Shown: positions 8,689 to 33,141 of the stretch, piece by piece | Layout of the letters: the number at the start of each line of letters is the position of its first letter | How positions within the stretch are numbered: the first letter of the stretch is position 1 | IMG/VR virus record: IMGVR_UViG_3300005537_000643 | Span: 1 to 35,065 of that record | Reading direction: 5' to 3' (one strand) | Origin: a virus | Length of the DNA: 35,065 nt | Translations under genes and position numbers: made by a program | Notes under the pieces: generated by a model | What the model was told of the DNA's origin: nothing | Databases searched by the model: none | The model's input: the letters and a program-made list of their open reading frames with translations, nothing else

Positions 8689-8710
8689 CGCCGCACACCG
8701 GTTTACGGCG
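8689..8710. repeat. Dispersed 22-bp palindrome, copy a
   Basis: Reads as the consensus (CGCCG, CAGACCGGTTTA, CGGCG) with a single change: the G at position 8 is C. The site is intergenic, between the 61-aa gene and the LysM gene, 29 bases before the latter's start codon. Confidence 0.85.
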
Positions 8711-8729
8711 GGCGAGCGCCCGCGGCGCG

Positions 8730-8915
8730 CTAGGCCCCCCGCTTCTTCATCCAGGCCTGCAGCCCGGACGCGGCCGAGCTGCCGCCGCTGCTGCCGCCGC
8801 TGGCGCCCGAGGACGCCATCTCCGACGACGCGCCTTCGCTCTCGCCGGTCTCTCCGCGGTCCGCGCTCTCCGGGGTCGAGGTGGCGCTGTCGTCGACGGG
8901 CTTCTTCGTGGCCAT
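8730..8915 (-). CDS. Small Ser/Gly/Ala-rich protein (61 aa)
   Basis: ATG at 8915 has GAGGAG ten bases upstream. The protein has a lysine-containing start (MATKKPVDD), a low-complexity Ser/Glu/Gly middle (SSGASGGSSGGSSAASG) and a basic end (LQAWMKKRGA). It looks disordered, with a possible short terminal helix. It sits just after the tape measure. Small proteins at this place are common in phage tails but the family was not recognised. A TTAGACA element lies upstream at about 8941-8947 and may be a promoter, but it does not fully match the TAGNNT pattern. Confidence 0.6.
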   Translation of the reverse strand: MATKKPVDDSATSTPESADRGETGESEGASSEMASSGASGGSSGGSSAASGLQAWMKKRGA

Positions 8916-8972
8916 GGCTTTCGATCTCCTCTCCACGTGTCTAACAGACTCGCGCGGGCGGTCCAAGTGGGG

Positions 8973-10826
8973 CTACAGGCCGAAGGGAGTCGAGTTGCGC
9001 GCCTGCCGCCGGTTCATCGCCTGGTTCACGAGGTCCTTGCGGAAGACGACCATCACGCGGTCGGGGTCGGCCTCGCGGAAGTCCTGCTTGATGTTGAAGG
9101 TCTGCCCCCCGAACATGTTGACGCTCGGGCCCTGGCCCTTGATGTCGCTGGGGGTCAGGCCCTTCGCCATCGTCTTGAGCTTCTCCGCGAGCTCGGGCGA
9201 CTTCTCGTCGAGCATCTTGAGGAACTCGCCGAAGCCGCCCTCGACCTTGATCGACCCCTCGACGAGGGCCTGCTGCATCGCGCTCGAGCCCTGCAACAGC
9301 GAGATCGCGTACATGAGCGAGCCCTCGTTGTGGCTCTGGATCGCGCGGTTCAGGTAGCCGGTGAAGTTGGACGTGTCGCCCTGGTCGGCGGCCGCCTTCG
9401 CCTCGGCCGCCTGGCGCTCGAACTCCGCGTGCCACTCCTGCATCGACTTGATCGTCCGCTCGATCGACTCGGGGGTCGCCTCCGCCTCGGTCGCCAGCTT
9501 GCGGAACTTCTCGACGGCCTGCGAGAACGCCTCCTCGCCCTCGCCCGTCACGCCGCGCGCCGCGGTGCGCGCCTGCTCCTCCGCCGCGCTCACCCCGGCG
9601 CGCTGGCGCGAAGTATCGAGGATGGGCGTCAGGAACTCGTAGACCGAGCGCATCGTCTTGGCGACCGTCTCGGTCGCCTGCACGAGCCACTTCGCCGCAC
9701 CGATGATGTCGGACGCGACCTCCTTGAAGGTGTGCGCGATGACGTCCTTGTGGCTGAGGATGAACTCCCACGCCTCGTGCAGGGGCCGGCTCGCCGCCTC
9801 GGCCACCTCCTTCACCGTGTCCCAGTTCTCGTGGAACGCGTCGTAGACGTTCGACGCGACCGAGGACACGACGTCGATGGCCTCGCCGAAGCCGGTGCCG
9901 ATCTGCTCGCCGATGCGCTTGATGTCCTCCGAGTGCGACGCGAGGAAGTCGCGCACCTTGATGAGCGGGGGCATCAGGTGCGCGAGCATCGGCGTGCCGA
10001 CCGACTCGAGGAACGACTCGCGGATGGTGCCGAGGCTCTTGTTGATCTCGCCGAGGCTCGGGGTCATCGCGGCGGCCCCGCCCTTCTGCATGATCTGGTA
10101 CTGCCGCTCGATGGCCGCGCGCGCGGCCTCCATCTGCTTCTCGGGCGTCATCTTCTGGAGCTGCGCGGCGACCGCGTGCGCGTTGCCGTGCAGGGTCCCC
10201 GTCGCCGCGATGAGCTGCACGATGGGGTTGCGGGCGCGGATGACGCCCAGCTCGATCATCGAGAAGCCCTCGGCGATGCCGCGCGTGCCCGCGGGCACGA
10301 TCTTGCCGACGGTCGCCATCTGCTCGGTGAGCTCGCGCGCCTTGTTCGCCGAGACCCCTCCGCGCTCGATGATCGACTCGTACATGTCGGTCACCTCCTT
10401 CATCGTGAGGCCCGCCTGGATGGCCGTCTTCTCCAGCTCCTCGCGCGTGTTCATCGCAAACGCGCCGATCTCGGCCGACCCGTGCTGCCCCCGATCCATG
10501 AAGGTCAGCAGGCCGCTCATCGCGCGGACCTGCAGGTTCATCTCGTCGGCCGCCTCCATGGCCGCCTCGCCGAACTTCACCGCCATCTCGAACGCCTGCT
10601 CGAAGCCCTCGGCGATGAGGTGCGCGCCCTTCTCGACGAGGTGCGCGTGGATGTTGCCCTTGGCGACGGCGCCTGCCAGCCCCTCGGCGCTGTCCTTCGC
10701 CTTCTCGGTCGCGCCGTGCGTCCCGTGCATCGCCTCCTTCATCTGGGTGACGGTGCTCGCCGCACTGTCGTCGATGACCAGGCGGATCTTGACGTCGGCG
10801 TTTCCGGCGGTCCCTTCCTCGGGCAT
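8973..10826 (-). CDS. Tape measure protein
   Basis: A 617-aa, mostly alpha-helical protein with heptad-like and Ala/Glu/Lys-rich stretches (residues 25-110, 145-260, 310-410, 450-520) and hydrophobic helices, as expected of a tape measure, which sets tail length and is held inside the tube. It lies directly after the chaperone pair with its likely frameshift, the standard order. At roughly 0.15 nm per residue it would give a tail near 90 nm (a family rule, not measured here). The ATG at 10826 has no Shine-Dalgarno sequence; instead TAGGAT lies seven bases before it, suggesting a leaderless transcript. Confidence 0.8.
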   Translation of the reverse strand: MPEEGTAGNADVKIRLVIDDSAASTVTQMKEAMHGTHGATEKAKDSAEGLAGAVAKGNIHAHLVEKGAHLIAEGFEQAFEMAVKFGEAAMEAADEMNLQVRAMSGLLTFMDRGQHGSAEIGAFAMNTREELEKTAIQAGLTMKEVTDMYESIIERGGVSANKARELTEQMATVGKIVPAGTRGIAEGFSMIELGVIRARNPIVQLIAATGTLHGNAHAVAAQLQKMTPEKQMEAARAAIERQYQIMQKGGAAAMTPSLGEINKSLGTIRESFLESVGTPMLAHLMPPLIKVRDFLASHSEDIKRIGEQIGTGFGEAIDVVSSVASNVYDAFHENWDTVKEVAEAASRPLHEAWEFILSHKDVIAHTFKEVASDIIGAAKWLVQATETVAKTMRSVYEFLTPILDTSRQRAGVSAAEEQARTAARGVTGEGEEAFSQAVEKFRKLATEAEATPESIERTIKSMQEWHAEFERQAAEAKAAADQGDTSNFTGYLNRAIQSHNEGSLMYAISLLQGSSAMQQALVEGSIKVEGGFGEFLKMLDEKSPELAEKLKTMAKGLTPSDIKGQGPSVNMFGGQTFNIKQDFREADPDRVMVVFRKDLVNQAMNRRQARNSTPFGL

Positions 10827-10833
10827 GGCTCAC

Positions 10834-10839
10834 ATCCTA
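10834..10839 (-). promoter_or_regulatory. Predicted -10 element (leaderless), tape measure gene
   Basis: On the minus strand TAGGAT is followed by seven bases (GTGAGCC) and the ATG. This spacing places the transcription start at the start codon. No recognisable -35 box was seen. Confidence 0.5.
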
Positions 10840-10846
10840 GCGCGTC

Positions 10847-12281: not shown

Positions 12282-14891
12282 TTACGCGGCGTTCGCGAGC
12301 TCGACGACGTTGGTGACGGTGGGACCGATGGTCGTCGCGAGCACGATGCTGTCGAGCGACGAGAGCGTCCTCACCGCGATGACGACGCGGTAGAGGCCCT
12401 GGCCCAGCGTGGTCGCGCTGTTCTGCTTGTCGCTGAGCGCGTAGGAGTCGATGCGCTGGTTGTTCGGGTTGTCCTTGCCGAGCAGGCCGTCGAGGAACTG
12501 CCGGATCTCCGAGACCAGGGCCTTGCGCCGCGCGACGGTCGCGAGCTTCTTGCCGAAGGTCTTCGCGCGCAGCGCGAGCGAGTCCTGGATGTAGTCGGCC
12601 ATGCGCCGGCGCGCGATGGTGACCAGGCCGGGGTTCACGTTCGGGTCGACGCTCGTGACGCCCGACTGGAAGATGGCCGTCCCGTCGTCCATTCGCAGCG
12701 CCGCGATGCCCGCGGCCTTGAACAGCTCGTAGTCGGCGATCGTGAAGTTCTGGACGTTCGCGCCCGACTCCAGCCCGTTGATCGCGCCCGCGAACGGGGT
12801 CTCCTGGCCCGGGTTCTCCTCGGGCGGGAGCTGGCTCATGAAGCTCGCCAGGAGAGAGTCGCTCCCCACGTCGACCGCGCCGTCGGGAGTGAAGCCGGCG
12901 CCGCCCGCGCTGCCCACGCTCGCGATGATGGGCACCGTGACGTTGCTGCCGATGTAGCAGTAGATGACCCGGTCGCTGCGGTACGCGCCCACGCCCGGCT
13001 CGGCGGTCGTCGAGAGGGCGACGCTCTCGGGGGTGTTGAGCGGCGGGCGGATGCACGCGACGCGACCGAACAGGCCGTTGCTCGACGCGGAGAGGGCCGT
13101 CGCGCGGAGGTTCTTGCGCACCGAGTTGCTCTGGCGCGCGGAGAACATGATGTTGGTCTGCTTCGCGACCGTGCTCGGGTTGAGCGTCGCGGTCATCGCG
13201 CTCTGGTAGGCGACGTCGAGCTGCGTCTCGGTGAGCGCCGCGGAGATGGGCGTCAGGTTGACGACCGAGAACGCGCCGAGGTCGGGCGGGTTGGTCACCT
13301 GCGTGACCGCGCCCGCGATCGCGCTGACGCCCGTGCCGTCGTCGAGCGCGGGGCGGACCTTCACGCTGTAGGGGCCCGCGAGCGGCTGCAGGACGCCGCC
13401 CTGCGCGATGCTGGGCGCGCCCGTGAAGACGGCCGGGCCGACGAAGTCGATGTCCTGCATCGTCACGTAGGCCTGCCCGTTGGGCACCTGGACGACCGTG
13501 CCCGCGGGGATGCTGCCCCGGGCGGTCGCAGTGCCGAACACCGTGCCGACGGTGAGGCCGAGGGCCGTGAGGATGGCGGGGCCGCCGATGCCGCCCGAGG
13601 CAGAGACGACCGAGACCGAGTCGGTCGGCCCGGTGCCGAGGCCCTGGATGTAGAAGCGCGTCGCGCCGTCCGCGACGGCCGGGGCGCCCTGACCCGCGGC
13701 GGTGAACGCGGCGTTGATCTTCGTGAGGACGTTCGCGAGCGTCGTGTCGGTGTTCGCGAACGTCGTCGTGACCTGCGGCTTGCTGCCGATCTGCAGGACA
13801 AGCGTCTCGCCGCCCGACGGTGCCCAGGGGTAGGTGCCCGGGCCCGAGATGAGGATCGCTTGGCCGTTGCTCGTGGCGAGCGCGCCCGGCGCGAACCCGA
13901 GGTTCGCCGCCGTCGTGCCGCTGCCGACCGCGAGGAACCCGCTCGCGCCCGTGTTCGAGAGGCGCAGGCGGCCCGCGGAGTCGACCTCCACCTTGCTGTT
14001 GCTGACGGCCGCCTGGACGATCGTCGCGACCTCGGTGGGCGCCACGGCCGCGATGTTCTGCACGTTGCCGCCGCCCAGGGTCGTCGCCGCCGTCAGGCCG
14101 AGGGTCGTGAGCACGCCCGCGCTCCCGCTGACCACGCGCACCTGCCCCGCGAGGCCCGCCACCAGGCCCGTGAGGCTGATGACGGTGCCCGACACCGAGG
14201 CCGCCATCGGGAAGCCGGCGTACTGGTTGATCCGTGCGATGACCTGCGCCTGGCTCTGGTCGGCGGCGAGGAAGGTCACCGTGAAGTTGGGCTGGCCGTC
14301 GACGCCGAGGACGAGCGTCTGGCCGCCCGTGAAGGTCGTGGGGTAGGTGCCCGCGCCCGAGTTGACGCTCGCCGCGGTGCCGGTGAAGGTCGCGCTCTGC
14401 GGCCCGCTGCCCGAGTCGACCTGCAGCACCTGCCCGCTCGCGAGCGCGTAGCGGAAGCTCGCGAGCCCGGTGAGAAAGGCGAGGCGCGTGAACTGCACGG
14501 CCCCGACGCTCGTGTCGACGCGGCAGATGAAGAGGCGCGCGTACTGCTTGCCCTGGAGCTGGACGAAGCCGTTGCCGTTCCAGAACTCGGGGAAGAGCGC
14601 CCCGTCGGCGCTGCGCTGGCGCGCGCACGGGTTGTTCGCGGGGACCGACCCATACTGGAAACCGAGCGTCCCGAAGGTCGTCGCGAGGTCGGTCGCGCTC
14701 GTGACCTCGAAGACGCCGCCCGACTGGGTGGAGAACGGCCCGTTCTCGAACTCGCCGACGATCAACGTCGCCCCCGTGCCGATGCCCTTGATCGGCGACG
14801 GCGGCTCCAGGTCGAGGATGTTGACGCTCTCGATGTTGAGCAGCACGTCCGTGCCAGGGTCGAACGTGAAGCGGCGGATGAAGACCGACAT
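12282..14891 (-). CDS. Contractile tail sheath protein with large insertions
   Basis: An 869-aa protein, longer than most phage sheaths (about 390-660 aa). The N-terminal 150 residues contain GIGTGATLIVGEFENGPF and FEVTSATDLATTFG, typical of sheath domain I. The C-terminal domain has YELFKAAGIAALRMDDGTAIF, TIARRRMADYIQDSLALRAK and a helical region ending in VRTLSSLDSIVLATTIG, as in other sheaths. Residues about 151-450 are an insertion with two similar blocks (GTYPTTFTGGQTLVLGVDG at about 181 and GTYPWAPSGGETLVLQIGS at about 352), each followed by a short helix (ARINQY/TKINAAF) and VVSxSxG...LTxLGLT. GAGGAG precedes ATG 14891. Confidence 0.85.
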   Translation of the reverse strand: MSVFIRRFTFDPGTDVLLNIESVNILDLEPPSPIKGIGTGATLIVGEFENGPFSTQSGGVFEVTSATDLATTFGTLGFQYGSVPANNPCARQRSADGALFPEFWNGNGFVQLQGKQYARLFICRVDTSVGAVQFTRLAFLTGLASFRYALASGQVLQVDSGSGPQSATFTGTAASVNSGAGTYPTTFTGGQTLVLGVDGQPNFTVTFLAADQSQAQVIARINQYAGFPMAASVSGTVISLTGLVAGLAGQVRVVSGSAGVLTTLGLTAATTLGGGNVQNIAAVAPTEVATIVQAAVSNSKVEVDSAGRLRLSNTGASGFLAVGSGTTAANLGFAPGALATSNGQAILISGPGTYPWAPSGGETLVLQIGSKPQVTTTFANTDTTLANVLTKINAAFTAAGQGAPAVADGATRFYIQGLGTGPTDSVSVVSASGGIGGPAILTALGLTVGTVFGTATARGSIPAGTVVQVPNGQAYVTMQDIDFVGPAVFTGAPSIAQGGVLQPLAGPYSVKVRPALDDGTGVSAIAGAVTQVTNPPDLGAFSVVNLTPISAALTETQLDVAYQSAMTATLNPSTVAKQTNIMFSARQSNSVRKNLRATALSASSNGLFGRVACIRPPLNTPESVALSTTAEPGVGAYRSDRVIYCYIGSNVTVPIIASVGSAGGAGFTPDGAVDVGSDSLLASFMSQLPPEENPGQETPFAGAINGLESGANVQNFTIADYELFKAAGIAALRMDDGTAIFQSGVTSVDPNVNPGLVTIARRRMADYIQDSLALRAKTFGKKLATVARRKALVSEIRQFLDGLLGKDNPNNQRIDSYALSDKQNSATTLGQGLYRVVIAVRTLSSLDSIVLATTIGPTVTNVVELANAA

Positions 14892-14963: not shown

Positions 14964-14985
14964 CGCCGCAGACCGGTTTACGGTC
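14964..14985. repeat. Dispersed 22-bp palindrome, copy b
   Basis: Matches the consensus in 20 of 22 positions, with the last two bases TC instead of CG. It contains the TAA stop codon of the gene at 14978-15748 (bases 15-17 of the palindrome) and lies upstream of the sheath promoter candidate. Confidence 0.85.
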
Positions 14986-15748
14986 CGCCGAAGCCCTGGG
15001 TGCTCCCCGGCCCGCTCTGCGCGGTGGGGTCGTTCGTCAGGTCGACGGCCACGCCCGTGTCCTCGTCGACGTCGACGTTACTGCGCACGAGCGGGGAGAA
15101 CGGCGCGTAGCGCACGAGCGCGACGATGTTGAAGCGCATCTCGAGCTCGATCTGCGCGCGGCGCCGGTTACGCGCGGCGTCCGGCTCGTCGAAGAGGGCG
15201 CGGTTCCAGAGCGTGAAGCACACCAGCTCGTTGAAGTAGTCGGGCATCTTGAAGCGCACGCCGCTCATCTGCTCGGTCGGCGAGAAGGCGGTCTCCAGCG
15301 CCGCGACGATCGACCGGCGCTCGGCGCGCTTGCTCGCGCGCACCTCGAGCTTGATGTGCTCGTTGTACTCGGCCTGCCACTGCAGCACCGTGCCCTGGCC
15401 GTACTTGTCGCGCGTCGACTCCTCGACGTACGCGGTCAGGCCGATGACGTCGTAGCTCGCGGTGTTCGACAGCACCGTGATGCTCGGGAAGAGCTGGTCC
15501 TGCTCGTAGTCGGGCCACTCGATGAAGAAGCGGTCGGGCGTGATGCGGAAGGGTCGCGGCGGCCGGCCCTCGCCCATGGGCAGGAAGAAGACGAGCGCGC
15601 ACACGTACTGCTGCAGGATGCGCAGGGCGACGGTGCGCCCGTCGACCGCGAGCGGCGGGGGCGCCGGGCGCGGCGGGTAGAGGCGCCCGAAGGGTGTGCC
15701 GAACAGGATGCTGGCCAGGTTCTGCGGGAGGTCCGCCACGGTCGTCAC
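14978..15748 (-). CDS. Putative tail terminator/neck protein
   Basis: A 256-aa protein with GTG start at 15748, overlapping the preceding stop as GTGA. The N-terminal half has ASILFGTPFGRLYPPRP, VALRILQQYVCALVFFLPMG and RFFIEWPDYEQDQLFPSITV; the middle has LQWQAEYNEHIKLEVRASKR, AERRSIVAALETAFSPTEQ and FNELVCFTLWNRALFDEPD. The alpha/beta layout and position immediately before the sheath fit a tail terminator, which caps the tail and joins it to the head. The ending is acidic and disordered (DVDEDTGVAVDL onward). The stop codon TAA lies within palindrome copy b. The family was not identified, so the role is inference from position. Confidence 0.5.
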   Translation of the reverse strand: MTTVADLPQNLASILFGTPFGRLYPPRPAPPPLAVDGRTVALRILQQYVCALVFFLPMGEGRPPRPFRITPDRFFIEWPDYEQDQLFPSITVLSNTASYDVIGLTAYVEESTRDKYGQGTVLQWQAEYNEHIKLEVRASKRAERRSIVAALETAFSPTEQMSGVRFKMPDYFNELVCFTLWNRALFDEPDAARNRRRAQIELEMRFNIVALVRYAPFSPLVRSNVDVDEDTGVAVDLTNDPTAQSGPGSTQGFGGP

Positions 15749-18196: not shown

Positions 18197-19588
18197 TTAC
18201 AGCGCGTGCTCGAGCACGATGGCGCGCTTGAAGCGCTCGGGCCCGCTCGGCGCCGTGATGTCGCTCGGGATCGGGAACGAGGTCGAGATCGACCACGTCG
18301 CCGTGACGAGCTGCTGCAGCTTGTCGAGCGGAGCGCGCAGCACCAGGCGGATGCGCTCCGTGAGGATCGAGATGTTGTTGTTGACCACCTCGAACTCGCC
18401 GATCTTGCCCGTCGTGCCGGCCTCGGTCACGTACGAGCCCTCGTCGAGGTACTTCTCGTAGACGACGCCGCGCCCGGTGATGAGCACGCGGCCGACCTGC
18501 GTGCCGCCGCCGTTGACGATCTCCGCCCCGAGCTCGTCGGCGAAGAGGCCCGACTGCGCGGTCGCGATGAGGTTGCCCGAGTTGAAGCTCTCGGGCGACT
18601 CCGTGTTCATGAAGAACATGATCCCGGCCATGTAGCCGAGGAAGCCCTCCTTGTAGATCACGTGCTCGGGCAGCGACTGGTTGAGTCGCTGGAACACGGG
18701 GTCCGCGAAGAGCTGCGCCATCGAGAGCGGCGAGATGTGTGCGTGGTAGAAGCCGTCGTCGTGCGGCTGCACGTTCGCGCGGCGCAGGAACGCCACCGCG
18801 TTGATGCACTGCTGGAGCGTGAGGGTGTCCGCCGGGCCGATGGCGTCGATCGACGCGCCGGCCGCGCTGCGCAGGATGCGCGGCGCGAAGGCGCTCTTGA
18901 CGGGCACGCGCGAGCTCGCGAACGCGGTGCCGATGGCGGCCGACAGGATGAGCGTGCCCGGGCCGATGGGGTCCGTGGGGTCGTCGGGGATGAAGCCGAC
19001 GACGCTCGCCGAGGCCGTGGGTCCGGCGCCGACCGTGATGGGCAGCGGGAAGGCCACGCTGACCGGCTGGGGCTTGACGTTGCCGCCCGGGATCACGACG
19101 TCGGTGAAGCCGTTGAGGGCCGCGACGCGGATGGCCGTGTCGGTCGACGCGATGGTCGTGAGCGAGACGGTCTGACCCGAGAGGTACGCCTGGAAGAGCG
19201 AGTTGCGCGCGATGCGGTTCACCGACTGACCGGCCTGGAGGCCGAGCTGGTGGATGTTGCGCAGCAGCAGGTTCGCGTTCGCCGTCGCGCTCGTCGGCAT
19301 ATGGGTGTCGATCGAGTCGGCGAACTGGTTGAGGGTCGCGACCCACTGCTCGTAGGGGACGACCTGACCGATGGGGTCCGTGCCGGGCGTGATCGGCTTC
19401 ACGTTCGGCTTGAGCAGACCCGCCCGGGTCTGGAACATCTCGTTGCCCGTGTTCTCGGGCCACTCCTCGGGCATGGCCTCCGCGCGGAACGCCAGGTTGG
19501 GGTACAGGCCGTCGTGGAACGCGCGCTCGAGCAGACCCTTCTGGTTCAGCTCGATGACGGCCGGCGGGACGCCGACGATGAGAGTCAT
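18197..19588 (-). CDS. Candidate major capsid protein
   Basis: A 463-aa protein just after the scaffold in the order of transcription, which is the normal place. It has an N-terminal arm-like part (PPAVIELNQKGLLERAFHDG), a long helix-containing region (LLLRNIHQLGLQAGQSVNRI), and a later segment YHAHISPLSMAQLFADPVFQ, LPEHVIYKEGFLGYMAGIMF and NNNISILTERIRLVLRAPLD. These are compatible with an HK97-fold capsid subunit (P22/N4 type). GGAGG lies nine bases before ATG 19588. Hairpins on both sides suggest separate transcript ends. Assignment rests on place, size and pattern; no mature cleavage site was seen. Confidence 0.7.
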   Translation of the reverse strand: MTLIVGVPPAVIELNQKGLLERAFHDGLYPNLAFRAEAMPEEWPENTGNEMFQTRAGLLKPNVKPITPGTDPIGQVVPYEQWVATLNQFADSIDTHMPTSATANANLLLRNIHQLGLQAGQSVNRIARNSLFQAYLSGQTVSLTTIASTDTAIRVAALNGFTDVVIPGGNVKPQPVSVAFPLPITVGAGPTASASVVGFIPDDPTDPIGPGTLILSAAIGTAFASSRVPVKSAFAPRILRSAAGASIDAIGPADTLTLQQCINAVAFLRRANVQPHDDGFYHAHISPLSMAQLFADPVFQRLNQSLPEHVIYKEGFLGYMAGIMFFMNTESPESFNSGNLIATAQSGLFADELGAEIVNGGGTQVGRVLITGRGVVYEKYLDEGSYVTEAGTTGKIGEFEVVNNNISILTERIRLVLRAPLDKLQQLVTATWSISTSFPIPSDITAPSGPERFKRAIVLEHAL

Positions 19589-19820: not shown

Positions 19821-19826
19821 AGCCTA
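19821..19826 (-). promoter_or_regulatory. Predicted -10 element for the capsid gene
   Basis: TAGGCT on the minus strand overlaps the TAG stop of the scaffold gene. A transcript from here would have a leader of about 225 bases, containing the GC-rich hairpin, before the capsid ATG. Weakly supported because TAG is also needed for the stop. Confidence 0.3.
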
Positions 19827-20711
19827 CCAGCGCAGGCCCGACTTCGCCGCCTCCGCCTTCGCCTCGCGGCTCGTCATGCTGTTCGCCTGGCCGGGGCGCA
19901 TCGTCTTCTCGCCCGCGGTGCCCTGGGCCGTCTTCTTGCCGTTCGTGTCGGCGCCGTTGGTGATCGGCTTCCTCTCGACCGTCTCGGTCTTGGTCTCCGC
20001 GGTCTCCTTCGCGAGCTTCGGCTTCCGCTTCACGAGGTCCTTGAAGTAGTCGTCGATCCCCTTGCGCAGGTCCTTGCTCTCCAGGCCCTTCGCGATCTGC
20101 TTCTTGTCGAAGTTCTTCTTCAGGTAGCGCGCGAGGCCGGGGAGCGAGTCCTCGACGTAGTCGGGGTCGAGGTACTTCTCGCCGATGCCGAGGATCTGGC
20201 GGTCGACCTTCTCGACCTCCTGGCTCGTGCGCAGCTCTCGCTCGCGCGCGTTCGCTGCGTCGAGGTCGGCCTTCAACTTCTTGTTGTCGTCCTCGAGCTT
20301 CTGCTCCTTGGTGAGGCCCTCCTGGCGCTTCTTCTCGTTGTCCGCCTTGAGGGCCGCGAGCTCGTCGAGCTGCTTCTTGATCTCGTCGGGGTCGTCGGTG
20401 CCGAAGCGGTCCTTCAGCACCTTGTTGGAGTGGCGCGTCAGGCGGCTCTTGAGCGCGCGCGGCGTCATCTCGATGAGCGCGACGTCGTCGGGGAGCTTCT
20501 CCGGGTCGTCGTCGTCCTTGAGCGTCGCCCGCTTCTCGCCGCCGCCCGCGGAGCCCTCGACCTCCGTCTCGGTCTTGGTCTCCGTCTTGGCCGCCGCGGG
20601 CTTCTCGACCTTCGTCTCGGTCTTGGTCTCCGTCTTGGCGGCGGTCCCGCCCGCGGCAGCGCCGCCCTCGGTCTTGGTGGCCGTCGTCGTGTCCTCTGCC
20701 TCTGCGCCCAT
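19824..20711 (-). CDS. Putative capsid scaffolding protein
   Basis: A 295-aa, highly charged protein. AAGGAGG is nine bases before ATG 20711 and only three before an earlier ATG at 20717, so 20711 is preferred. Residues about 25-55 have a Lys/Thr/Glu repeat (AKTETKTETKVEK and again AAAKTETKTETEVE). Residues 106-172 form a predicted coiled coil (DEIKKQLDELAALKADNEKK; QKLEDDNKKLKADLDAANAR). The C-terminus is disordered with a basic short end (AKAEAAKSGLRW). Scaffolding proteins are helical and charged, lie directly before the capsid gene and bind it through their C-terminus. The call is by these features, not by sequence family. Confidence 0.65.
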   Translation of the reverse strand: MGAEAEDTTTATKTEGGAAAGGTAAKTETKTETKVEKPAAAKTETKTETEVEGSAGGGEKRATLKDDDDPEKLPDDVALIEMTPRALKSRLTRHSNKVLKDRFGTDDPDEIKKQLDELAALKADNEKKRQEGLTKEQKLEDDNKKLKADLDAANARERELRTSQEVEKVDRQILGIGEKYLDPDYVEDSLPGLARYLKKNFDKKQIAKGLESKDLRKGIDDYFKDLVKRKPKLAKETAETKTETVERKPITNGADTNGKKTAQGTAGEKTMRPGQANSMTSREAKAEAAKSGLRW

Positions 20712-20758
20712 GGTCATGTTCCTCCTTCAGGTCCTGACGTGACTGCGCCCCGCTCGCC

Positions 20759-20780
20759 CGCCGTAAACCGGCTTGCGGCG
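20759..20780. repeat. Dispersed 22-bp palindrome, copy c (inverted)
   Basis: Reads as the consensus on the minus strand with two changes (positions 8-9, AG instead of GA). Intergenic, about 48 bases before the scaffold start codon and 35 after the preceding gene's stop. Confidence 0.85.
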
Positions 20781-20814: not shown

Positions 20815-21510
20815 TCAGATGATCGTGCTCGGCGCCTCGAGCAGCGCGTCGACGTCGATCTTGCTGGCGACGCCGTACTTCACGCGCGCCTGCGTGAAGT
20901 CGCCCGCGTGCGTGACGAGGTTCGCCTTGCCGAGGTCGAGCGAGGCGTGGCTGCCCGCCGCCGCCGTCCCGGGCAGGTCGACGATGAGGTTCGCGTCGCC
21001 CGCGATGCCCGGGTTGCCCTCGCACTCCGCGATGAAGACGATGCCGTTCGCGACGTCCGCCGCGGGCAGCGGGGTGACCCCGGAGGCGAGCACCGGGATG
21101 GTCACCTCCTTGATGTCGTACTTCATCGGCTCGTACGCGACGTCGACGCTCGTGTACGCGTCGGCCGCGTGGAACTCCAGGTCGCCCGTCGGCGTGATGA
21201 CGATCGAGTGCGCGCCCGGGTCGCCCGCGTAGCTGTCGCTCGCGACGATGGTGAGCGGGCCCTTGGTGCCGGTGCCGGCGCGCGCGTACGCGCGGCCGAT
21301 GGTGTCCGCCTTCGCGTCGTCGGGCAGCGTGAGCACCTGCCCCGAGCCCACGTAGGGGTTGGCCGGCGCCGCGTTCGGGCTCTTGTTTCGGAGCTGCGTC
21401 CGCAGGGCGCGCACGACGCTGCCGATCCCGATGGCGCGGAAGGCGTCGGCGAGCTGCGCGGGGAGCGCGCCGTTCATCGCAATGACGAGAGTCGTGGTCG
21501 TGCTGAGCAT
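20815..21510 (-). CDS. Putative virion protein, head-decoration-like (231 aa)
   Basis: ATG 21510 has AGGAG nine bases upstream. The N-terminal third is helical (GALPAQLADAFRAIGIGSVV, RALRTQLRNKSPNAAPANPY). The remaining part is beta-rich with repeats of strand-turn-strand text (GSGQVLTLPDD, GPLTIVASDSYAGDPGAHSI, VITPTGDLEFHAADAYTSVD, IKEVTIPVLASGVTPLPAAD, VKYGVASKIDVDALLEAPST). The mixture, and position beside scaffold and capsid genes, suggest a head decoration or minor structural protein. No family was identified. Confidence 0.5.
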   Translation of the reverse strand: MLSTTTTLVIAMNGALPAQLADAFRAIGIGSVVRALRTQLRNKSPNAAPANPYVGSGQVLTLPDDAKADTIGRAYARAGTGTKGPLTIVASDSYAGDPGAHSIVITPTGDLEFHAADAYTSVDVAYEPMKYDIKEVTIPVLASGVTPLPAADVANGIVFIAECEGNPGIAGDANLIVDLPGTAAAGSHASLDLGKANLVTHAGDFTQARVKYGVASKIDVDALLEAPSTII

Positions 21511-22338: not shown

Positions 22339-22575
22339 CTACTTGCCGAGCTTCATCGGCTTCTTGCGGTCGTCGGGGCCGCCCGCGGGCGGCCAGTCGA
22401 TCGGCGTCGAGTGCCCGTGGTAGCGGGACTGCAGGTCGCTCGGCGTCGGCAGGGGCGAGCCGGTGTCGCGCGAGGTGACGATGCCCTTGCCCGGTGCCGG
22501 AGTCGCGCTCTCCTCCGCGCGGGGCGCGGGAGTCGCGGGAGTCGCGGGGCTCGTGATGCGGAACGGCTTGGGCAT
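22339..22575 (-). CDS. Small proline-rich hypothetical protein (78 aa)
   Basis: GGAGG lies nine bases before ATG 22575. The sequence is Pro/Ser/Thr/Lys-rich (KPFRITSPATPATPAPRAEE; GKGIVTSRDTGSPLPTPSDL; DDRKKPMKLGK) and probably disordered. It starts the leftward series after the inverted gene at 22654-23049; the two genes diverge from a 78-base gap. Function unknown. Confidence 0.5.
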   Translation of the reverse strand: MPKPFRITSPATPATPAPRAEESATPAPGKGIVTSRDTGSPLPTPSDLQSRYHGHSTPIDWPPAGGPDDRKKPMKLGK

Positions 22576-22653
22576 CGGCGTCGACCTCCACCCAAGGACT
22601 ATCAGCCGGCGCAGGGGGGCGCAACGTGGCAGCCTGCGAGGCATAAGGGCGCC

Positions 22654-23049
22654 GTGGCCGGAGAGATCGTCAAGAGGGGTCCCGGGGAGGTCGAGCCGGG
22701 CGAGGGCGAGTCGTCCTCGGCGCTCGCGCCCGCGGGCTTCGACCTGCAGAACGTGGGCTACGCGGGCGTCGCGTCGTGCCCGATCTGCCTCGGCTCCCAC
22801 AAGGTCACCAAGAACACGCTCGACGGGATGCCCGTGTTCGTCATGGTCTGCCCCTACGCCGGCAGGAAGGGGATCCGCATGCTCGGCGTCCCCGCCGACG
22901 CCATCCGCACCGGGGGCCACTCCCTCACCGAGGCGTTCCGCCGCCAGCTCCAGGTGGAGCAGGAGCGCGAGAGGCTACTCGCCGCTCCCGCCGTCGTCGC
23001 CGGCTCCCTGCCCCCCGCCGAACCGGGAGAGGGGGACGGTGGTCATTAG
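22654..23049 (+). CDS. Inverted small gene: putative zinc-binding protein (131 aa)
   Basis: A + strand gene inside the leftward head block. GTG at 22654; AAGG and a CATAAG hexamer lie just upstream. It contains YAGVASCPICLGSHKVTKNT (a CPxC pair) and FVMVCPYAGRKG (a third Cys), with a final helix SLTEAFRRQLQVEQERERLL, so it looks like a small zinc-ribbon-type protein. Third codon positions are nearly all G or C and the text looks like protein, while the antisense frame does not. Its last 75 bases overlap the end of the Mu F-like gene. Small genes in reverse orientation often are additions (morons). The exact start is unsure because no stop lies just upstream in frame. Confidence 0.6.
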   Translation: MAGEIVKRGPGEVEPGEGESSSALAPAGFDLQNVGYAGVASCPICLGSHKVTKNTLDGMPVFVMVCPYAGRKGIRMLGVPADAIRTGGHSLTEAFRRQLQVEQERERLLAAPAVVAGSLPPAEPGEGDGGH

Positions 23050-24060: not shown

Positions 24061-26130
24061 TCACTTCTCCTTGCTGCTGCCCGCGTCGTCGCTCTCGTCG
24101 TCGAACGGGCTGCCGCTGCCCTTGCCGCCCTTGGCCCCCGGGGGAGCGATGACGGGCGGCGGGGGCTTGGGCGCCGCGGTGTGCGTGATCTTGCCGCCGC
24201 CCGGGAACTCCTGCTCGTGGGTGACGGTGTGCTGCATCTCTCCGCCGCCCTTGCCCCCGCCGGGCGCGCCCGGGGCGCCGCCGCTCGGCGCGTCGCTGCC
24301 GGCGTCGCTCCCCGCGTCGTCGCCGCCCGGCTCCGGGGGCTTGCCGCCCTTGCCGGCGCCGGGCGCCTGCTTGCCGCCCGCGTCCTCGAACATCTGCGCC
24401 TGCTTGTCCTCGACCTGGGCCTGCGCCTGCTGCACGCGGGTCCACTCGTCGGCGCCCTCCTTGCCGAACGCGCCCATGACAATCTCGGTGGCCGTCTGCT
24501 GGCTCATGATCGGCGCCTGCGCGACCGCCGTGGAGAGCGTGGTCACGATCATCTGCTGGTCGGTCGGCGTCGGCGGGAAGTAGTCGGGCCACTGCAGGTC
24601 GATGTCCCCGCCCTCGCCCGGCGTGCGCTCGATGAGCGTGACGGTCTCCTCGCCCGTGGGCCGGCCGTCCTCGTCGAGCACCGGCTCCTTCTCGACGCGC
24701 TTGGGGAGGTTGAAGCCCATCTGGGCCTTCTTCGTCTTGGGCAGCTCCTGCGACTCGCCCGCGTCGTCGCCGCTCGAGGAGCCGTCGAGATCGTCGGGGA
24801 CGTCGACCATCTTGCCGTCGAGCGCGTGCGCGACCTGCATCATCGCGTCGAGCGTGCGCACGATGCCGTCGCCGTACTGCTCGCGCAGGCCGTCGGCCTT
24901 GCCGAGCATCGGCTTGAAGATCATCTTCTGCGCGACGCTGCTCGTGCCCTGGGCGGCGAGCTTGTCGGGGTCCGCGAGGACGCATTCGCCGACCTCCAGG
25001 ATCGAGCGGCGCATCTCGTTGACGATCTTGAGGCCGACCTCCATCCCCGCGCCCTGGAGCTCCAGGTACTTCGCGTCGCCGTCCTTGTCGGCGATGAGGG
25101 CGTTGTCGCTGCCCTTCTTCACGCCGAACCGCTGGATGAAGTCGCGGTCGCCCTTGATGACGAGCGTGGGGTCGAGGTTGAGGGTCGCGCCGCGCACGAC
25201 GACCGAGAGGGTCGTGTCGAGGGCGTCGAAGTTCTCCCAGAGCCCCTCGCAGTCGGCCTGGCCGTCGTCGTCCTCGTCGGGGATGTTCTGCACCCAGGTG
25301 AAGTGGCAGACGCCGTCGTCGTGCCGGATGCTGCGCTTGTCGTCGACCACCCAGCTCGCCGGCTCCTTGCCCGCGACGACCGGCACCTCGACGTAGATGA
25401 GGTCCTCGTCGGGAGTCCAGTCGCGCCGGTACCAGTGCGGGACCCTCTCCATCCTCTCGCGCTGGGCGTTCCAGATGTCGCGGTGGAACTGGTAGCACTC
25501 GGTCACGTAGCGCGGGATGAACTGCGAGCGGTCCTCCCACTCGTGGACGTACACCTGCTTGGCGTTGTGGACCTCGAACCGCGGGCGGCCGTTGACGTAC
25601 GCCCACGACCACACCGCGGTGCCCGTAGCGCCGCCGAGGTTGCGCGCCTGCATGAGGCGCGATCCCATCTTGCCCACGCGCACGAGCGTCTGGATGAAGT
25701 CCTGGGTGTCGGTGTCGCCCGCGACGCGCGTCATCGGGAAGCGGTTCTCGCCGAACACCATCGAGGTGAACGCCTTCACCATCGCGCGGCAGAGGCGGTA
25801 GGGCGCGCTCGGCCGGCGGTTCCGCAGGGGGACGTAGTTCGGGTACTTCTCCGCCGAGATGAGGGGCTGGGTGACCGCGATGCCCGGGCCCGCACTGATG
25901 ATGCGGCCGTCGAAGTCGAAGCGCTTGTAGTCGTGCTGCGTGCACTCGAAGTAGGCCTGGCGGCGGTCGAGCTCGCGGTAGCGCGGCGAGTCGATGAAGG
26001 CGCGCGCCTTGAAGTCGTTGGGGTTGCCCGCCGTGCTCCCGAGGCGCACGGGCGCGCCGCTCACGCTCGGGCCCTGGGGCCCGCCCCAGTTGCCCGTGCC
26101 GACCTGCCGCATGTTCGCGGTGACCGCCAC
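24061..26130 (-). CDS. Portal protein
   Basis: A 689-aa protein, GTG at 26130 with AAGGGG upstream. Portal-like features: YVPLRNRRPSAPYRLCRAMV, KAFTSMVFGENRFPMTRVAG, TAVWSWAYVNGRPRFEVHNA, YRRDWTPDEDLIYVEV, FTWVQNIPDEDDDGQADCEG and FDALDTTLSVVVRGATLNLD, then a helical KLAAQGTSSVAQKMIFKPML. Order (portal then Mu F-like protein) is canonical. The last 110 residues are Gly/Pro/Lys/Asp-rich and disordered with repeats (APGAPGGGKGGGE; AGSDAGSDAPSGG), an unusually long tail. The portal makes the dodecameric ring for DNA entry and exit. Confidence 0.8.
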   Translation of the reverse strand: MAVTANMRQVGTGNWGGPQGPSVSGAPVRLGSTAGNPNDFKARAFIDSPRYRELDRRQAYFECTQHDYKRFDFDGRIISAGPGIAVTQPLISAEKYPNYVPLRNRRPSAPYRLCRAMVKAFTSMVFGENRFPMTRVAGDTDTQDFIQTLVRVGKMGSRLMQARNLGGATGTAVWSWAYVNGRPRFEVHNAKQVYVHEWEDRSQFIPRYVTECYQFHRDIWNAQRERMERVPHWYRRDWTPDEDLIYVEVPVVAGKEPASWVVDDKRSIRHDDGVCHFTWVQNIPDEDDDGQADCEGLWENFDALDTTLSVVVRGATLNLDPTLVIKGDRDFIQRFGVKKGSDNALIADKDGDAKYLELQGAGMEVGLKIVNEMRRSILEVGECVLADPDKLAAQGTSSVAQKMIFKPMLGKADGLREQYGDGIVRTLDAMMQVAHALDGKMVDVPDDLDGSSSGDDAGESQELPKTKKAQMGFNLPKRVEKEPVLDEDGRPTGEETVTLIERTPGEGGDIDLQWPDYFPPTPTDQQMIVTTLSTAVAQAPIMSQQTATEIVMGAFGKEGADEWTRVQQAQAQVEDKQAQMFEDAGGKQAPGAGKGGKPPEPGGDDAGSDAGSDAPSGGAPGAPGGGKGGGEMQHTVTHEQEFPGGGKITHTAAPKPPPPVIAPPGAKGGKGSGSPFDDESDDAGSSKEK

Positions 26131-26141: not shown

Positions 26142-26528
26142 TTAGCGGCGCGAGGCCGCGATGCGAGAGGCGGCGCTCCCCGCCGCGGGGCCCTCGGGGA
26201 CTGGACGCTCGCGGGGGGTCTGGGCCATGCCCTCTTCTACCATGCGCCGCGCCTCGTCGGTCAGGACCACGGAGGGGTGGTGCCGCGCGCCGAGCGCGAC
26301 GATGTTGGGCAGCGCGTAGTCCGGGTCGTCCTCGAGCCGGCGCCGGAGCGCGTCGGTGAACGGTGCGAGGCCCCCGCAGCGGATGCCGTCGGGCGCGGGG
26401 TCGCCCCCGTCCTCGTCCGTAAACCGGTCTGCGGCGGGCACGTCGAAGCCGGCCACGCGCATCCCGAGGCGGATGATCGCGGTGCCGGCGCGCACGCGCG
26501 CCCACTCGATGCGGTCGAGGAGGCTCAC
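26142..26528 (-). CDS. Hypothetical protein (128 aa) before the portal gene
   Basis: GTG at 26528 overlaps the preceding stop as GTGA. Helical start (LLDRIEWARVRAGTAIIRLG, MRVAGFDVPAADRF), then DGIRCGGLAPFTDALRRRLE, DYALPNIVALGARHHPSVVL and TDEARRMVEEGMAQTP, with a basic end (AASRIAASRR). Palindrome copy d lies inside the gene at 26415-26436 and encodes part of VPAADRFTDED, so the protein sequence may be constrained by the DNA site. No family identified. Confidence 0.5.
   Translation of the reverse strand: MSLLDRIEWARVRAGTAIIRLGMRVAGFDVPAADRFTDEDGGDPAPDGIRCGGLAPFTDALRRRLEDDPDYALPNIVALGARHHPSVVLTDEARRMVEEGMAQTPRERPVPEGPAAGSAASRIAASRR
26415..26436. repeat. Dispersed 22-bp palindrome, copy d (inverted, within a gene)
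   Basis: Reads as the consensus on the minus strand, with 20 of 22 bases matching (last two AC). Unlike the other five copies it lies in coding sequence, 285 bases upstream of the portal start codon. Confidence 0.85.
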
Positions 26529-27005: not shown

Positions 27006-27599
27006 TCAGGTGACGGTGAGCGACGCAGCGACCCACGCGACGCGCAGGCCCGGGGCCGTGCCGTACACGCCGAAGCCGTAGTGGCCGTTCTGGGGCACGT
27101 TCACGACGCCGCTGCTCTGCAGCGTCCAGCCGTTCTGCTCGTCGGGAGGCCCGATCTCCTCGGCGAGGACGCCCTTCTCCCCCGAGACGCCCGTGAAGAA
27201 GGGCGTCTGCTGGCTGCGGTCCGCGGCGAAGCGGATCATCCCCGAGAAGCGGTCGCCCCCGCGCACGCGCTCCGCGTACTCGGGTGAGGTCACCAGGCGG
27301 ATCGCCCAGTGGATGCCCTTCATCGAGCGGTCGCAGAAGAGCGTGAGCGGGGCGATGAGCCGCGGGACGGCGGAGTCCAGGGGCCAGCCCGCGCCCCACG
27401 CGCGCTTCGCGTAGCCCCCGACGCCCGACGCGTGGAACATCTCCGGCACGCACGGCAGCACCGCGACGCCGCGCTGCACGAGCTGGCGCGCGCGGGCGCT
27501 ATCGATGAGGGAGCCCTCCCAGAACTCCCCGGTGGGGTCCCACACGACGATGTTCGACTGCCCGACGGCCGCCACGTGACCGGGGTCCACACTGCTCAT
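27006..27599 (-). CDS. Hypothetical virion-type protein (197 aa)
   Basis: AAGGAGG lies eight bases before ATG 27599. A possible -10, CATACT, lies upstream. The protein has PGHVAAVGQSNIVVWDPTGE, VQRGVAVLPCVPEMFHASGV, APLTLFCDRSMKGIHWAIRL, TSPEYAERVRGGDRFSGM and WTLQSSGVVNVPQNGHYGFG. The C-terminal part (GVYGTAPGLRVAWVAASLTV) is beta-rich. Role unknown; a head or tail component is possible from position between lysin and portal. Confidence 0.5.
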   Translation of the reverse strand: MSSVDPGHVAAVGQSNIVVWDPTGEFWEGSLIDSARARQLVQRGVAVLPCVPEMFHASGVGGYAKRAWGAGWPLDSAVPRLIAPLTLFCDRSMKGIHWAIRLVTSPEYAERVRGGDRFSGMIRFAADRSQQTPFFTGVSGEKGVLAEEIGPPDEQNGWTLQSSGVVNVPQNGHYGFGVYGTAPGLRVAWVAASLTVT

Positions 27600-29587: not shown

Positions 29588-30430
29588 TCACTGCGCCGCC
29601 GCGCTGACGGTGCACACGTAGATGTCGCCCGCGTTCTCGTCCTCGAGCCAGGCGGGCGTCGCCCAGAAGAAGCCCTTGTCGCCCCACCCCTCGCTCCACG
29701 AGTTGACGCCGCGGAAGAGGAGCTCGCGGCTGACGCTCCCCGTCTTGGTCGTGTAGCCGGTGAGCGGCAGCATGTGGCCGCCGAGCAGACCGGCGGGGTT
29801 GGGGGCCGTGACAGGCGCGTCGCCCGAGTAGTCCTCGAACGCCTGGTCGACCTGCACGCCGAGCATGACGGGGAACTTGTTGTCGAGCGCCTGCTGGACG
29901 GCGGCCACGCGCGACGCGCCCACGAGGTCGATACGGTAGATCCCGCTGAGGATGAAGCTCGCGGCCTCCTCCGCCTTGCGAAGGGTCGGCTTGTCGTTGA
30001 CCGTCGCGGGGTCGAAGGGGAAGTCGGCGTCGCTCGGGATGCCCCACTCCTGCATCCCCTGGACGGCGAGGTAGGGCTGGCTCCCGCTGTCGGAGAGCGC
30101 GTCCTCGGGATGCGCGAGCGCCTGCATGCGCGCGAGCGCGTAGATGAACGCGGTGGAGGGCCAGGCGATGCGCGTGCCCATGATCGCGCACCGCATGTGC
30201 ACGATGCGCGCGCTCGCGAAGCCCACGCACTCGCTCGTCGTCGACTGGTCGCGCACCACGTCGACGTAGGAGTCGAGGATCGACTCGGTGCCCAGGCCCC
30301 GCACCGCGCCGAAGAGGTGCCGCGACTGCGGCACCAGGCCCCCGGTGACGTCCGGGTGCAGGTCCCTGTTCCAGCCCTTCGCGTACCGCTTGTGCGACTT
30401 GCTCTCCACCGGCGCGGCGTCGTCAGTCAT
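29588..30430 (-). CDS. Papain-like (C1-type) cysteine peptidase
   Basis: A 280-aa protein with all three elements of the C1 active site: VRDQSTTSECVGFASA (Gln62, Cys68; oxyanion Gln then catalytic Cys at the start of a helix), GGHMLPLTGY (His219) and RGVNSWSEGWGDKGFFW (Asn243, in the NSW..GWG..GFF pattern). The middle has PSTAFIYALARMQ and GMQEWGIPSDADFPFD. No signal peptide, no pro-domain and no extra domain are seen, although the first 45 residues could be a short pro-like region. Likely a thiol endopeptidase; possible roles are virion maturation or attack on host proteins. ATG 30430 lacks a ribosome binding site but is preceded by TAGTCT. Confidence 0.75.
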   Translation of the reverse strand: MTDDAAPVESKSHKRYAKGWNRDLHPDVTGGLVPQSRHLFGAVRGLGTESILDSYVDVVRDQSTTSECVGFASARIVHMRCAIMGTRIAWPSTAFIYALARMQALAHPEDALSDSGSQPYLAVQGMQEWGIPSDADFPFDPATVNDKPTLRKAEEAASFILSGIYRIDLVGASRVAAVQQALDNKFPVMLGVQVDQAFEDYSGDAPVTAPNPAGLLGGHMLPLTGYTTKTGSVSRELLFRGVNSWSEGWGDKGFFWATPAWLEDENAGDIYVCTVSAAAQ

Positions 30431-30437: not shown

Positions 30438-30443
30438 AGACTA
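30438..30443 (-). promoter_or_regulatory. Predicted -10 element (leaderless) of the cysteine peptidase gene
   Basis: TAGTCT followed by seven bases (GCAGCGC) and ATG. Palindrome copy e begins at the upstream edge of this hexamer and runs to about -33, in the place of a -35 region, so the protein that binds it could activate or repress. Confidence 0.55.
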
Positions 30444-30463
30444 CGGCAGACCGGTTTACGGCG
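30442..30463. repeat. Dispersed 22-bp palindrome, copy e
   Basis: The last 17 bases match the consensus exactly; in the left arm three of five bases differ (TACGG for CGCCG). Intergenic, ending next to the TAG stop codon of the preceding gene (30464-30466) and overlapping the promoter of the cysteine peptidase gene. Confidence 0.85.
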
Positions 30464-30880
30464 CTAGGAGCTGCGCGTGGAGCCGGGCCACACGGTGATG
30501 GTGCCGAAGTCGATCGTCTTCGCGTTGCCCGCGGGGTCCTCGGCGCGCACGTCGTACACGAGGTCGACCGGCCCGTCGGGGAAGTTCTGCGTGGCGCCCG
30601 TGGGGAACGTGACGATCGCGATGCCCGAGAGCGGCTGCACGAACACGATGCCCCCGCCCGTCTGCGTGACCTGCGAGACCGCGCGCACGTCGGGGTCGGA
30701 GAGGTAGAACTTGAGCGTCGCCCACATCTTCCAGCCCGTGATGTTCGCGGGTACGAGCGGGGAGTTGGGCAGCGAGGGCACCGCAGGCGTGAGCACCTGC
30801 ACCGGGAAGGAGAGCGCGTCTCCGCGGAACATCGTGCGCTGCGTGTTGATCGGGGGGACGAGCGTCGCCGACTGGGTCAT
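30464..30880 (-). CDS. Hypothetical virion-type protein (138 aa)
   Basis: AGGAGG lies nine bases before ATG 30880. A beta-rich protein (TMFRGDALSFPVQVLTPAVP, NITGWKMWATLKFYLSDPDV, IVFVQPLSGIAIVTFPTGAT, VDLVYDVRAEDPAGNAKTID, TITVWPGSTRS). The DALSFPVQVL...ITGWKMWATLKF form resembles small phage baseplate/upper-fibre attachment domains (BppU-type), from memory only. Role unproven. Confidence 0.5.
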   Translation of the reverse strand: MTQSATLVPPINTQRTMFRGDALSFPVQVLTPAVPSLPNSPLVPANITGWKMWATLKFYLSDPDVRAVSQVTQTGGGIVFVQPLSGIAIVTFPTGATQNFPDGPVDLVYDVRAEDPAGNAKTIDFGTITVWPGSTRSS

Positions 30881-32529: not shown

Positions 32530-32533
32530 GGCC

Positions 32534-32818
32534 TCAGCCGACCTTCTGCGCCGGGGGCGCTTCCAGGGCGAAGCCGTGGTTGCAGCCCCCGAACAGGGGC
32601 ATGCACACGTGGGTCGTGCCGTCGGTCTGCTTGGCCAGCTCCGGGGGCGGCAGCTCGGTGACCGCGTGCTGGAAGCACATGGGGCAGTGGCGCGCGAGCA
32701 CGCGCACGTCGTAGCTCGTCTCGCCGACGATCCAGCAGACCAGGACCTCGCCCGCGGGGAGCTTCATGACCTCGGTCTGCCGCCGCCCGCGACCCTTGCG
32801 CACCTTGACCGCGTTCAC
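32534..32818 (-). CDS. Putative zinc-binding protein (94 aa)
   Basis: GTG start at 32818 overlaps the previous stop (GTGA). Contains LARHCPMCFQHAVTELPPPE and HVCMPLFGGCNHGFALEAPP: CPMC followed by C...CNH suggests a zinc site. Start is basic (VNAVKVRKGRGRRQTEVMKL). Located in the right-hand accessory group, it may be a small regulator or structural zinc protein. No family identified. Confidence 0.5.
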   Translation of the reverse strand: MNAVKVRKGRGRRQTEVMKLPAGEVLVCWIVGETSYDVRVLARHCPMCFQHAVTELPPPELAKQTDGTTHVCMPLFGGCNHGFALEAPPAQKVG

Positions 32819-33054
32819 GACTGCACCTCGCCCATGAACTGCTCGGCGAGCATGACGAGCGACTCCTCGACCTCGGCCGCGCCGTCGACCGCGCGCACGC
32901 ACACGTCGACCACGCGGTGCGAGCGCGTCACCTCGTAGTCCAGGCTCGCCTCGGCGGCGAAGCGCTCCGCCTGCTCGGGGCTCGGGAACTCGAACGTCGC
33001 GTAGGAGGACGCGTCCTCCGCCACTTCCGCCATCGGGACCATCATGCTTGTCAT
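32815..33054 (-). CDS. Small hypothetical protein (79 aa)
   Basis: ATG 33054 is preceded by AGGAGC and by the strong promoter at 33061-33088 (TATATT six bases before ATG). Text: YATFEFPSPEQAERFAAEAS, LDYEVTRSHRVVDVCVRAVD, VEESLVMLAEQFMGEVQS. It looks like a ferredoxin-like alpha/beta fold (beta-alpha-beta-beta-alpha). The start may alternatively be a downstream ATG. Role unknown. Confidence 0.5.
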   Translation of the reverse strand: MTSMMVPMAEVAEDASSYATFEFPSPEQAERFAAEASLDYEVTRSHRVVDVCVRAVDGAAEVEESLVMLAEQFMGEVQS

Positions 33055-33060
33055 GCTCCT

Positions 33061-33088
33061 AATATAAGCCGGTTCGCATGCCTGTCAA
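33061..33088 (-). promoter_or_regulatory. Strong sigma70-type promoter
   Basis: On the minus strand TTGACA (33088-33083), 16 bases, TATATT (33066-33061), then six bases and ATG 33054. The -35 box is perfect and the -10 box matches TATAAT in 5 of 6, by far the clearest promoter in the window, and probably drives the 79-aa gene and onward. Confidence 0.7.
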
Positions 33089-33090
33089 CA

Positions 33091-33120
33091 GGGCCCGTTT
33101 TTGCAGCCCTTTCCGGGCCC
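33091..33120. other. Hairpin between the promoter and palindrome copy f
   Basis: A 7-bp stem (GGGCCCG at 33091-33097 with CGGGCCC at 33114-33120; 16-base loop). It lies between the stop of the upstream gene and the promoter. No T tract follows on the minus strand, so it may end upstream transcripts only weakly. Confidence 0.35.
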
Positions 33121-33141
33121 GCCGCAGACCGGTTTACGGCG
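33120..33141. repeat. Dispersed 22-bp palindrome, copy f (consensus)
   Basis: Exact consensus: CGCCG, CAGACCGGTTTA, CGGCG. Contains the TAA stop codon of the gene at 33134-33739 at the same place (bases 15-17) as copy b. It lies 32 bases upstream of the -35 box at 33083-33088. Confidence 0.9.

Follow-up and report, generated by a model that had tools for sequence, protein, structure and literature searches.

Lineage-private palindromes dispersed along the genomes of a large, apparently lytic phage family, and a ParB/Noc-like candidate for their reader

The stretch of DNA analyzed here, referred to as the window, is the whole of the 35,065-bp virus record IMGVR_UViG_3300005537_000643. It is a fragment of an uncultured, contractile-tailed myovirus, with genes for portal, major capsid, sheath, neck, baseplate, endolysin, and papain-like protease proteins, and it contains six dispersed copies of a palindrome (Table 1). 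When GCAGACCGGTTTACGG is searched with up to 3 mismatches, exactly 6 matches are found compared to 0.18 expected, and none of 100 shuffles reaches six. Four of the matches are exact, one has 1 mismatch, and one has 2, with four on the + strand and two on the − strand. In its coordinates, its count of orientations, and its statement that chance cannot explain the sites, the first-pass annotation of this DNA is borne out. In a matrix scan of the window, the runners-up score far lower than the six sites and are mostly the reverse strands of these same sites.

That annotation described a 22-bp unit with CGCCG and CGGCG as its outer arms. The repeated palindrome stands, but the arms are not its conserved part, as they vary among the copies, with those at 14964, 26415, and 30442 deviating. 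The true unit is an 18-bp core, CCGyArrCCGGTnTrCGG, in which the perfect half is GGTTTACGG and the other half differs at 2 positions, matching the two non-complementary pairs that had been noted. All genes flanking the sites are leftward. Three of the six sites are strictly intergenic. Two others overlap the upstream stop codon, which is the TAA within CCGTAAACC, and one lies inside a weak open reading frame (ORF). The spacing of the sites is more even than chance (coefficient of variation, CV, of 0.27; p = 0.007 against random gaps), and the asymmetric copies occur both ways (4 vs. 2) despite the uniform direction of the genes.

Relatives were found with the major capsid protein of the window, which retrieves 11 at 62–76% identity and, when used as a profile, 69 loci down to 38%. 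The window motif is not found in any of the first 11 capsid relatives. A de novo search instead reveals different dispersed palindromes in several of these 11 and in many of the 69 loci. Our array statistics cover 13 near-complete genomes of 77–100 kb, each of which has 14–26 copies of one near-invariant palindrome of 18–30 bp, distributed along the whole genome. The existence of the array is certain. In G004 (99.9 kb), we find 26 perfect copies of CCCAAACCCGGGTTTGGG and none at 1–2 mismatches, and in G005 (99.6 kb), there are 17 copies of CGAAAAGCGCTTTTCG, 13 exact and 4 near. The palindromes of the eleven further genomes are ATTGGAAACCCGGGTTTCCAAT (18 copies), TGGGAACCCGGGTTCCCA (20), TCGGAAGATCGATCTTCCGA (15), GACCGACATCGATGTCGGTC (19), ACGGATGATCGATCATCCGT (17), GACGCCGGATCGATCCGGCGTC (17), AAATCCAATTGGATCGATCCAATTGGATTT (22), AGTCGAGGCCCGGGCCTCGACT (18), ACCGCGCCGCGCGGCGCGGT (14), GAGATAACACCGGTGTTATCTC (16), and GGAAACCCGGGTTTCC (17).

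A scan of 2.9 million viral contigs with two of these palindromes finds each of them in its own phage and a single close relative, and nowhere else. One core is common to G001 and G005, and another to G012 and G014, so the palindrome code is private to a lineage and not unique to each contig. The window motif itself has one exact match in the 2.9 million viral contigs, which falls within the beginning of an unrelated gene and was discarded as chance. A relaxed palindrome search in G016, G007, G011, G009, and G002 yields nothing. G016 does have a dispersed, non-palindromic GCAGACCATAAACCGAAACCCGAACCC-like repeat, which occurs ~6–8 times over 11 kb (L189, 26.5–38 kb of the record). In G005, CCTAGAGGCTCCTAGGAGC-like near-palindromes are found 20–40 bp upstream of some sites (L027–L028, near 65380, 70080, and 98060). 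The same genome encodes a Tet/JBP oxygenase, an amino acid:DNA transferase, P-loop nucleotide kinase 3, and N6/N4 methylases (L025–L026, ~36–48 kb), a hypermodification-type set that suggests modified DNA.

The window gives no match to a phage collection by DNA or by its sheath protein, and its capsid protein matches only distant Streptomyces and Komagataeibacter phages, two of which have no such array in their first 50 kb. The cultured-phage collection searched contains no close member of the family, so isolates would not have revealed the system, and we found no description of dispersed phage palindromes in open-licence papers. Contigs of metagenome-assembled genomes that contain relatives are binned with a proteobacterium, Armatimonadetes, and Methylocystis, which is weak evidence of the hosts.

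Within the cores, 100 changes are single-sided and 12 are compensated, and pairing stops at the core, with flank pairing of 0.39 compared to 0.40 in shuffles. The uncompensated changes and the lack of flank pairing identify the palindromes as protein targets in DNA rather than RNA hairpins. A CG is at the centre of 25 of the 26 distinct cores, compared to 53% of background palindromes. The centromeric site parS and the Noc-binding site (NBS) are likewise CG-centred (PMC7383237). That a dimeric DNA-binding protein reads the array, as was proposed from the window, is nearly certain.

Of 251 site centres in the 13 genomes, 179 fall between genes, compared to 32 expected, and about a quarter are inside predicted ORFs. 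The sites are often in short gaps directly after stop codons, with a median distance of 29.5 bp from the upstream stop codon to the site centre. One site is found every 3.4–6 kb, and the mean spacing CV of 0.54, compared to 0.89 ± 0.05 for equal numbers of sites in random gaps, is never reached in 4,000 sets. Sites are present in all modules, including replication and early-type genes, with recurrent positions immediately ahead of the UvsW-like helicase gene, ahead of the capsid gene, and following the small terminase gene. The sharing of gaps between genomes is weak, with 99 shared pairs where random gaps give 65 ± 12 and length-weighted ones 76 ± 14, and even distribution seems to matter more than the identity of the next gene. 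The first-pass annotation held that the idea would fall if relatives did not keep the sites at the same gaps. The sequence is indeed not kept and the gaps are weakly shared, yet the system is kept with a different palindrome, and this criterion would have misled.

The protein families common to all 13 palindrome genomes are structural and replication proteins, plus Z386, a fast-evolving protein of 315–477 amino acids whose gene lies between those of a sigma factor and DNA polymerase B. All 13 palindrome genomes encode Z386, and four of six relatives without palindromes lack it. It is not seen on the window fragment, and a tblastn search of the phage collection with it gives no match. The suggestion that the binder is encoded elsewhere than in the window is therefore probably correct, with this gene of the complete relatives as the candidate. 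Four invariant cysteines are found near the N-terminus of Z386, where a Pfam scan gives zinc-ribbon-type matches. The full-length model is confident over residues 125–252, and a second-look structural alignment of it returns seven ParB/Noc entries at Z 7.0–8.9 followed by unrelated structures at 3.9. The DNA-binding domain alone is modelled with a predicted local distance difference test score (pLDDT) of 97.2, and its ten best alignments are all to ParB/Noc (Z 8.7–9.4), with SopB at 4.6 and unrelated structures at ≤3.3. The structural matches include Noc–NBS and ParB–parS complexes, and one Z386 member has a Pfam HTH_ParB match. The predicted layout of Z386 is a Cys4 zinc-ribbon-like segment at the N-terminus, a ParB/Noc-type DNA-binding domain in the middle, and a beta domain at the C-terminus, with the fold assignment resting on the second-look structural alignments. 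When ParB specificity residue 184 is mapped by hand in the 13 related genomes, it seems to be basic in the CCCGGG phages and small in the ATCGAT phages, which is only a lead. Z386 is probably the reader of the palindromes; we infer its binding to them, as well as the role of the array. The option of partition-like sites, raised in the first-pass annotation, gains strength from the ParB/Noc-like candidate and from the CG centre, which parS and NBS also have.

Several observations weigh against this assignment. Support for the ParB fold from sequence is weak (Pfam E of 8e-5 to 2e-3 in one member), profile searches of PDB sequences with Z386 gave only chance matches, and the plain Foldseek E-values are not significant. 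In G016 and G022, Z386 is encoded, yet no palindrome array is detectable. The covariation of the palindrome with Z386 is not special, ranking third of 32 families, with that of the helix-turn-helix alone being weaker, and Z386 is found together with the replication module as a whole, such that its co-occurrence with the palindromes is confounded by phylogeny. The ParB_N CTPase domain is not found in Z386, and as ParA is also missing, a full partition mechanism is unlikely. Finally, the genomes encode other helix-turn-helix proteins that are possible binders.

Other candidates were tried and rejected. A set of genes shared by several palindrome genomes and missing from the first relatives without the motif did not yield the binder; the one chosen first, at G004 78728, looks structural. 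The G004 96594 family (window 27006–27599) is the best tracker of palindrome distance and looks like a structural beta protein, and because this best-covarying family looks structural, the correlation with palindrome distance mainly follows phylogeny. The XRE protein of G004 (68165–68416) has no clear counterpart in most other genomes. ParB_N proteins are widespread, mostly lack a helix-turn-helix, and are also found in the palindrome-less G007. A ParB-like protein with both ParB_N and HTH_ParB occurs in L146 (G020 51688–52257) and L164 (G021 4861–5349).

The best explanation, which we favour with moderate confidence, is that a ParB/Noc-like phage protein with genome-private specificity binds the arrays. 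The six window sites would then belong to an array that spans the genome and serves a dimeric DNA-binding protein encoded by the phage, with each genome of the family having its own palindrome and the specificity of the protein changing along with it. During infection, Z386 would dock on the 14–26 sites per genome and so form a regularly spaced nucleoprotein scaffold along the phage DNA, one that may work like Noc on scattered NBS or KorB on scattered operators. Such a scaffold could organize, tether, or segregate replicating DNA and/or damp read-through transcription, with genome organization or tethering being somewhat favoured over transcriptional silencing. Co-infecting relatives would be kept apart by their private palindromes, much as plasmids are by having different centromeres. 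A more far-reaching proposal, which we put forward tentatively, is that of a self-specific identity array in a large, apparently lytic phage family, where a CTPase-less, ParB/Noc-derived protein on ~20 evenly spaced, lineage-private palindromes would organize, tether, or segregate the genome inside the infected cell, its specificity diversifying like that of plasmid centromeres.

By analogy with known systems, the arrangement would work most like Noc/NBS or KorB, with a layout like that of stoperators. Noc/NBS, which acts in Bacillus nucleoid occlusion, similarly pairs a ParB/Noc-type domain with ~16-bp CG-centred palindromes scattered over one replicon (PMC7383237, PMC8429893), and the CCCGGG centre of NBS is also found in the palindromes of several phages. 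Unlike Noc, Z386 has a zinc-ribbon-like N-terminus instead of a CTPase domain, and the phage sites are denser, longer, and different in each phage lineage. KorB of plasmid RK2 places a ParB-family domain on scattered palindromic OB operators for long-range silencing (PMC11790492) but uses a CTP clamp and KorA, whereas Z386 lacks the CTPase domain and the phage motif differs between genomes. A recent survey (2025) covers proteins of the ParB-CTPase fold (PMC12704722), which Z386 does not have. ParABS shares a CG-centred palindromic centromere and a ParB-type helix-turn-helix, but no ParA is detected in these phages, their sites are genome-wide and not clustered, and the ParB_N proteins that many of them encode are separate from Z386. 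With the CTPase domain and ParA missing and the sites symmetric and unoriented, we do not file the array under Noc/NBS, KorB, or stoperators.

The strongest alternative, although an unlikely one, is that the sites are stoperators or operators of an immunity or silencing repressor that blocks phage transcription at many intergenic sites, like that of cluster A mycobacteriophages; C1 of phage P1 is a comparable repressor. This possibility fits the dispersal of ~20 sites, most of which follow closely on a stop codon in a short intergenic gap, and their private specificity recalls heteroimmunity. Cluster A genomes have ~20–30 dispersed sites with phage-specific motifs (PMC6550527, PMC9283540), with up to ~30 stoperators per phage, most of them not promoter-associated (PMC6550527). 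Stoperators, however, are 13-bp, asymmetric, and transcription-oriented, occur in temperate phages, where a monomeric repressor binds them, and are alike among relatives, whereas the palindromes are symmetric and entirely different among relatives, and their candidate binder is of the ParB/Noc type. Furthermore, we find no tyrosine integrase in 15 near-complete genomes, with all controls detected, and no ParA-type ATPase (PF13614) above the cut-off in the same number of genomes, with 14/14 control genomes detected; there is thus no sign of lysogeny. The genomes carry DNA polymerase B, DnaB- and UvsW-like helicases, RecA, and gp46/47-like genes, and the lifestyle looks lytic. The lack of integrase and ParA, together with this replication gene set, argues against a lysogeny repressor or plasmid-type partition. 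Of the repressor sites suggested in the first-pass annotation, it is the lysogeny form that is weakened, although a repressor may escape detection by homology.

Less likely still are operators of an activator or repressor for particular operons, with a logic like that of T4 MotA or P2 Ogr. Many sites do lie 20–60 bp before a gene. G004 encodes a sigma-70 region 2 protein and has ~14 exact copies of GCGGCATAAGGG just upstream of start codons (L019–L023; e.g., 76527, 81278, and 75296). This motif looks like a phage promoter −10 element, and several sites lie 3–15 bp upstream of it. The distance from palindrome to −10-like element is not fixed, however, ranging from ~8 to 30 bp, and the quarter of centres within predicted ORFs, the weak conservation of the following gene, and the regular spacing also speak against operon-specific operators. 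A terminator instead follows some sites (G001 7508 and G004 8681), with no terminator linkage of the sites overall. The late-gene activator that had been proposed conflicts with this variable distance and with sites that span whole genomes.

Sites for a host DNA-binding protein, with each phage matching its own host, would account for a sequence private to each phage lineage. We consider this very unlikely, as all copies are preserved almost exactly, a ParB/Noc-like candidate is encoded by the phages themselves, and neither of the two scanned motifs occurs outside its own phage lineage in a set consisting of 2.9 million viral contigs and no host genomes. Mobile REP-like (repetitive extragenic palindromic) elements or RNA hairpins, such as terminators or processing sites, would also be intergenic and often immediately after stop codons, but they are scarcely credible for palindromes with no loop, no pairing past the core, no excess of compensated changes, no linked terminators, no Y1 transposase in the 13 genomes, regular spacing, and a mixed orientation of the asymmetric window copies.

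If the arrays are indeed bound by a ParB/Noc-like phage protein, a virus-borne branch would be added to the ParB/Noc world, with the suggestion that lytic phages mark and organize their own DNA by a private code. The many natural palindrome–protein pairs would constitute a data set on the divergence of DNA-binding specificity, a question already explored in detail for the ParB/Noc pair, and they could yield new orthogonal DNA-labelling pairs.

Table 1. Palindrome copies and selected genes in the window
Feature	Position	Strand	Details
Site 1, palindrome copy	8689–8710	+	Core 8691–8708, CCGCACACCGGTTTACGG; 28 bp ahead of the start of ORF 7368–8660
Site 2, palindrome copy	14964–14985	+	Core 14966–14983, CCGCAGACCGGTTTACGG; TAA is the stop of ORF 14978–15748; 75 bp ahead of sheath-like gene 12282–14891
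Site 3, palindrome copy	20759–20780	−	Core 20761–20778, CCGCAAGCCGGTTTACGG on − strand; between ORFs 20815–21510 and 19824–20717; one gene upstream of major capsid gene
Site 4, palindrome copy	26415–26436	−	Core 26417–26434, CCGCAGACCGGTTTACGG on − strand; upstream of portal gene 24061–26130; inside weak ORF 26142–26528
Site 5, palindrome copy	30442–30463	+	Core 30444–30461, CGGCAGACCGGTTTACGG; short gap between ORFs 30464–30880 and 29588–30430
Site 6, palindrome copy	33120–33141	+	Core 33122–33139, CCGCAGACCGGTTTACGG; TAA is the stop of ORF 33134–33739
Major capsid protein gene (query for relatives)	18197–19588	−	PHROG 1357, E 6.8e-13
Tail sheath-like gene, downstream of site 2	12282–14891	−	PHROG 23 tail sheath, E 4e-5
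Portal gene, downstream of site 4	24061–26130	−	PHROG 64 portal, E 1.1e-9

Three further features of the window were observed. A 300-nt direct repeat with 77% identity (2529–2828 and 3698–3997) is found in two adjacent tail-region genes and is probably a duplicated fibre or baseplate domain. The ORF at 19824–20717, one gene upstream of the capsid gene, contains two tandem 48-bp units that are 88% alike (20546–20641). Between ORFs 22339 and 22975, codon usage at 22463–23049 hints at a possible + strand gene among the leftward genes.

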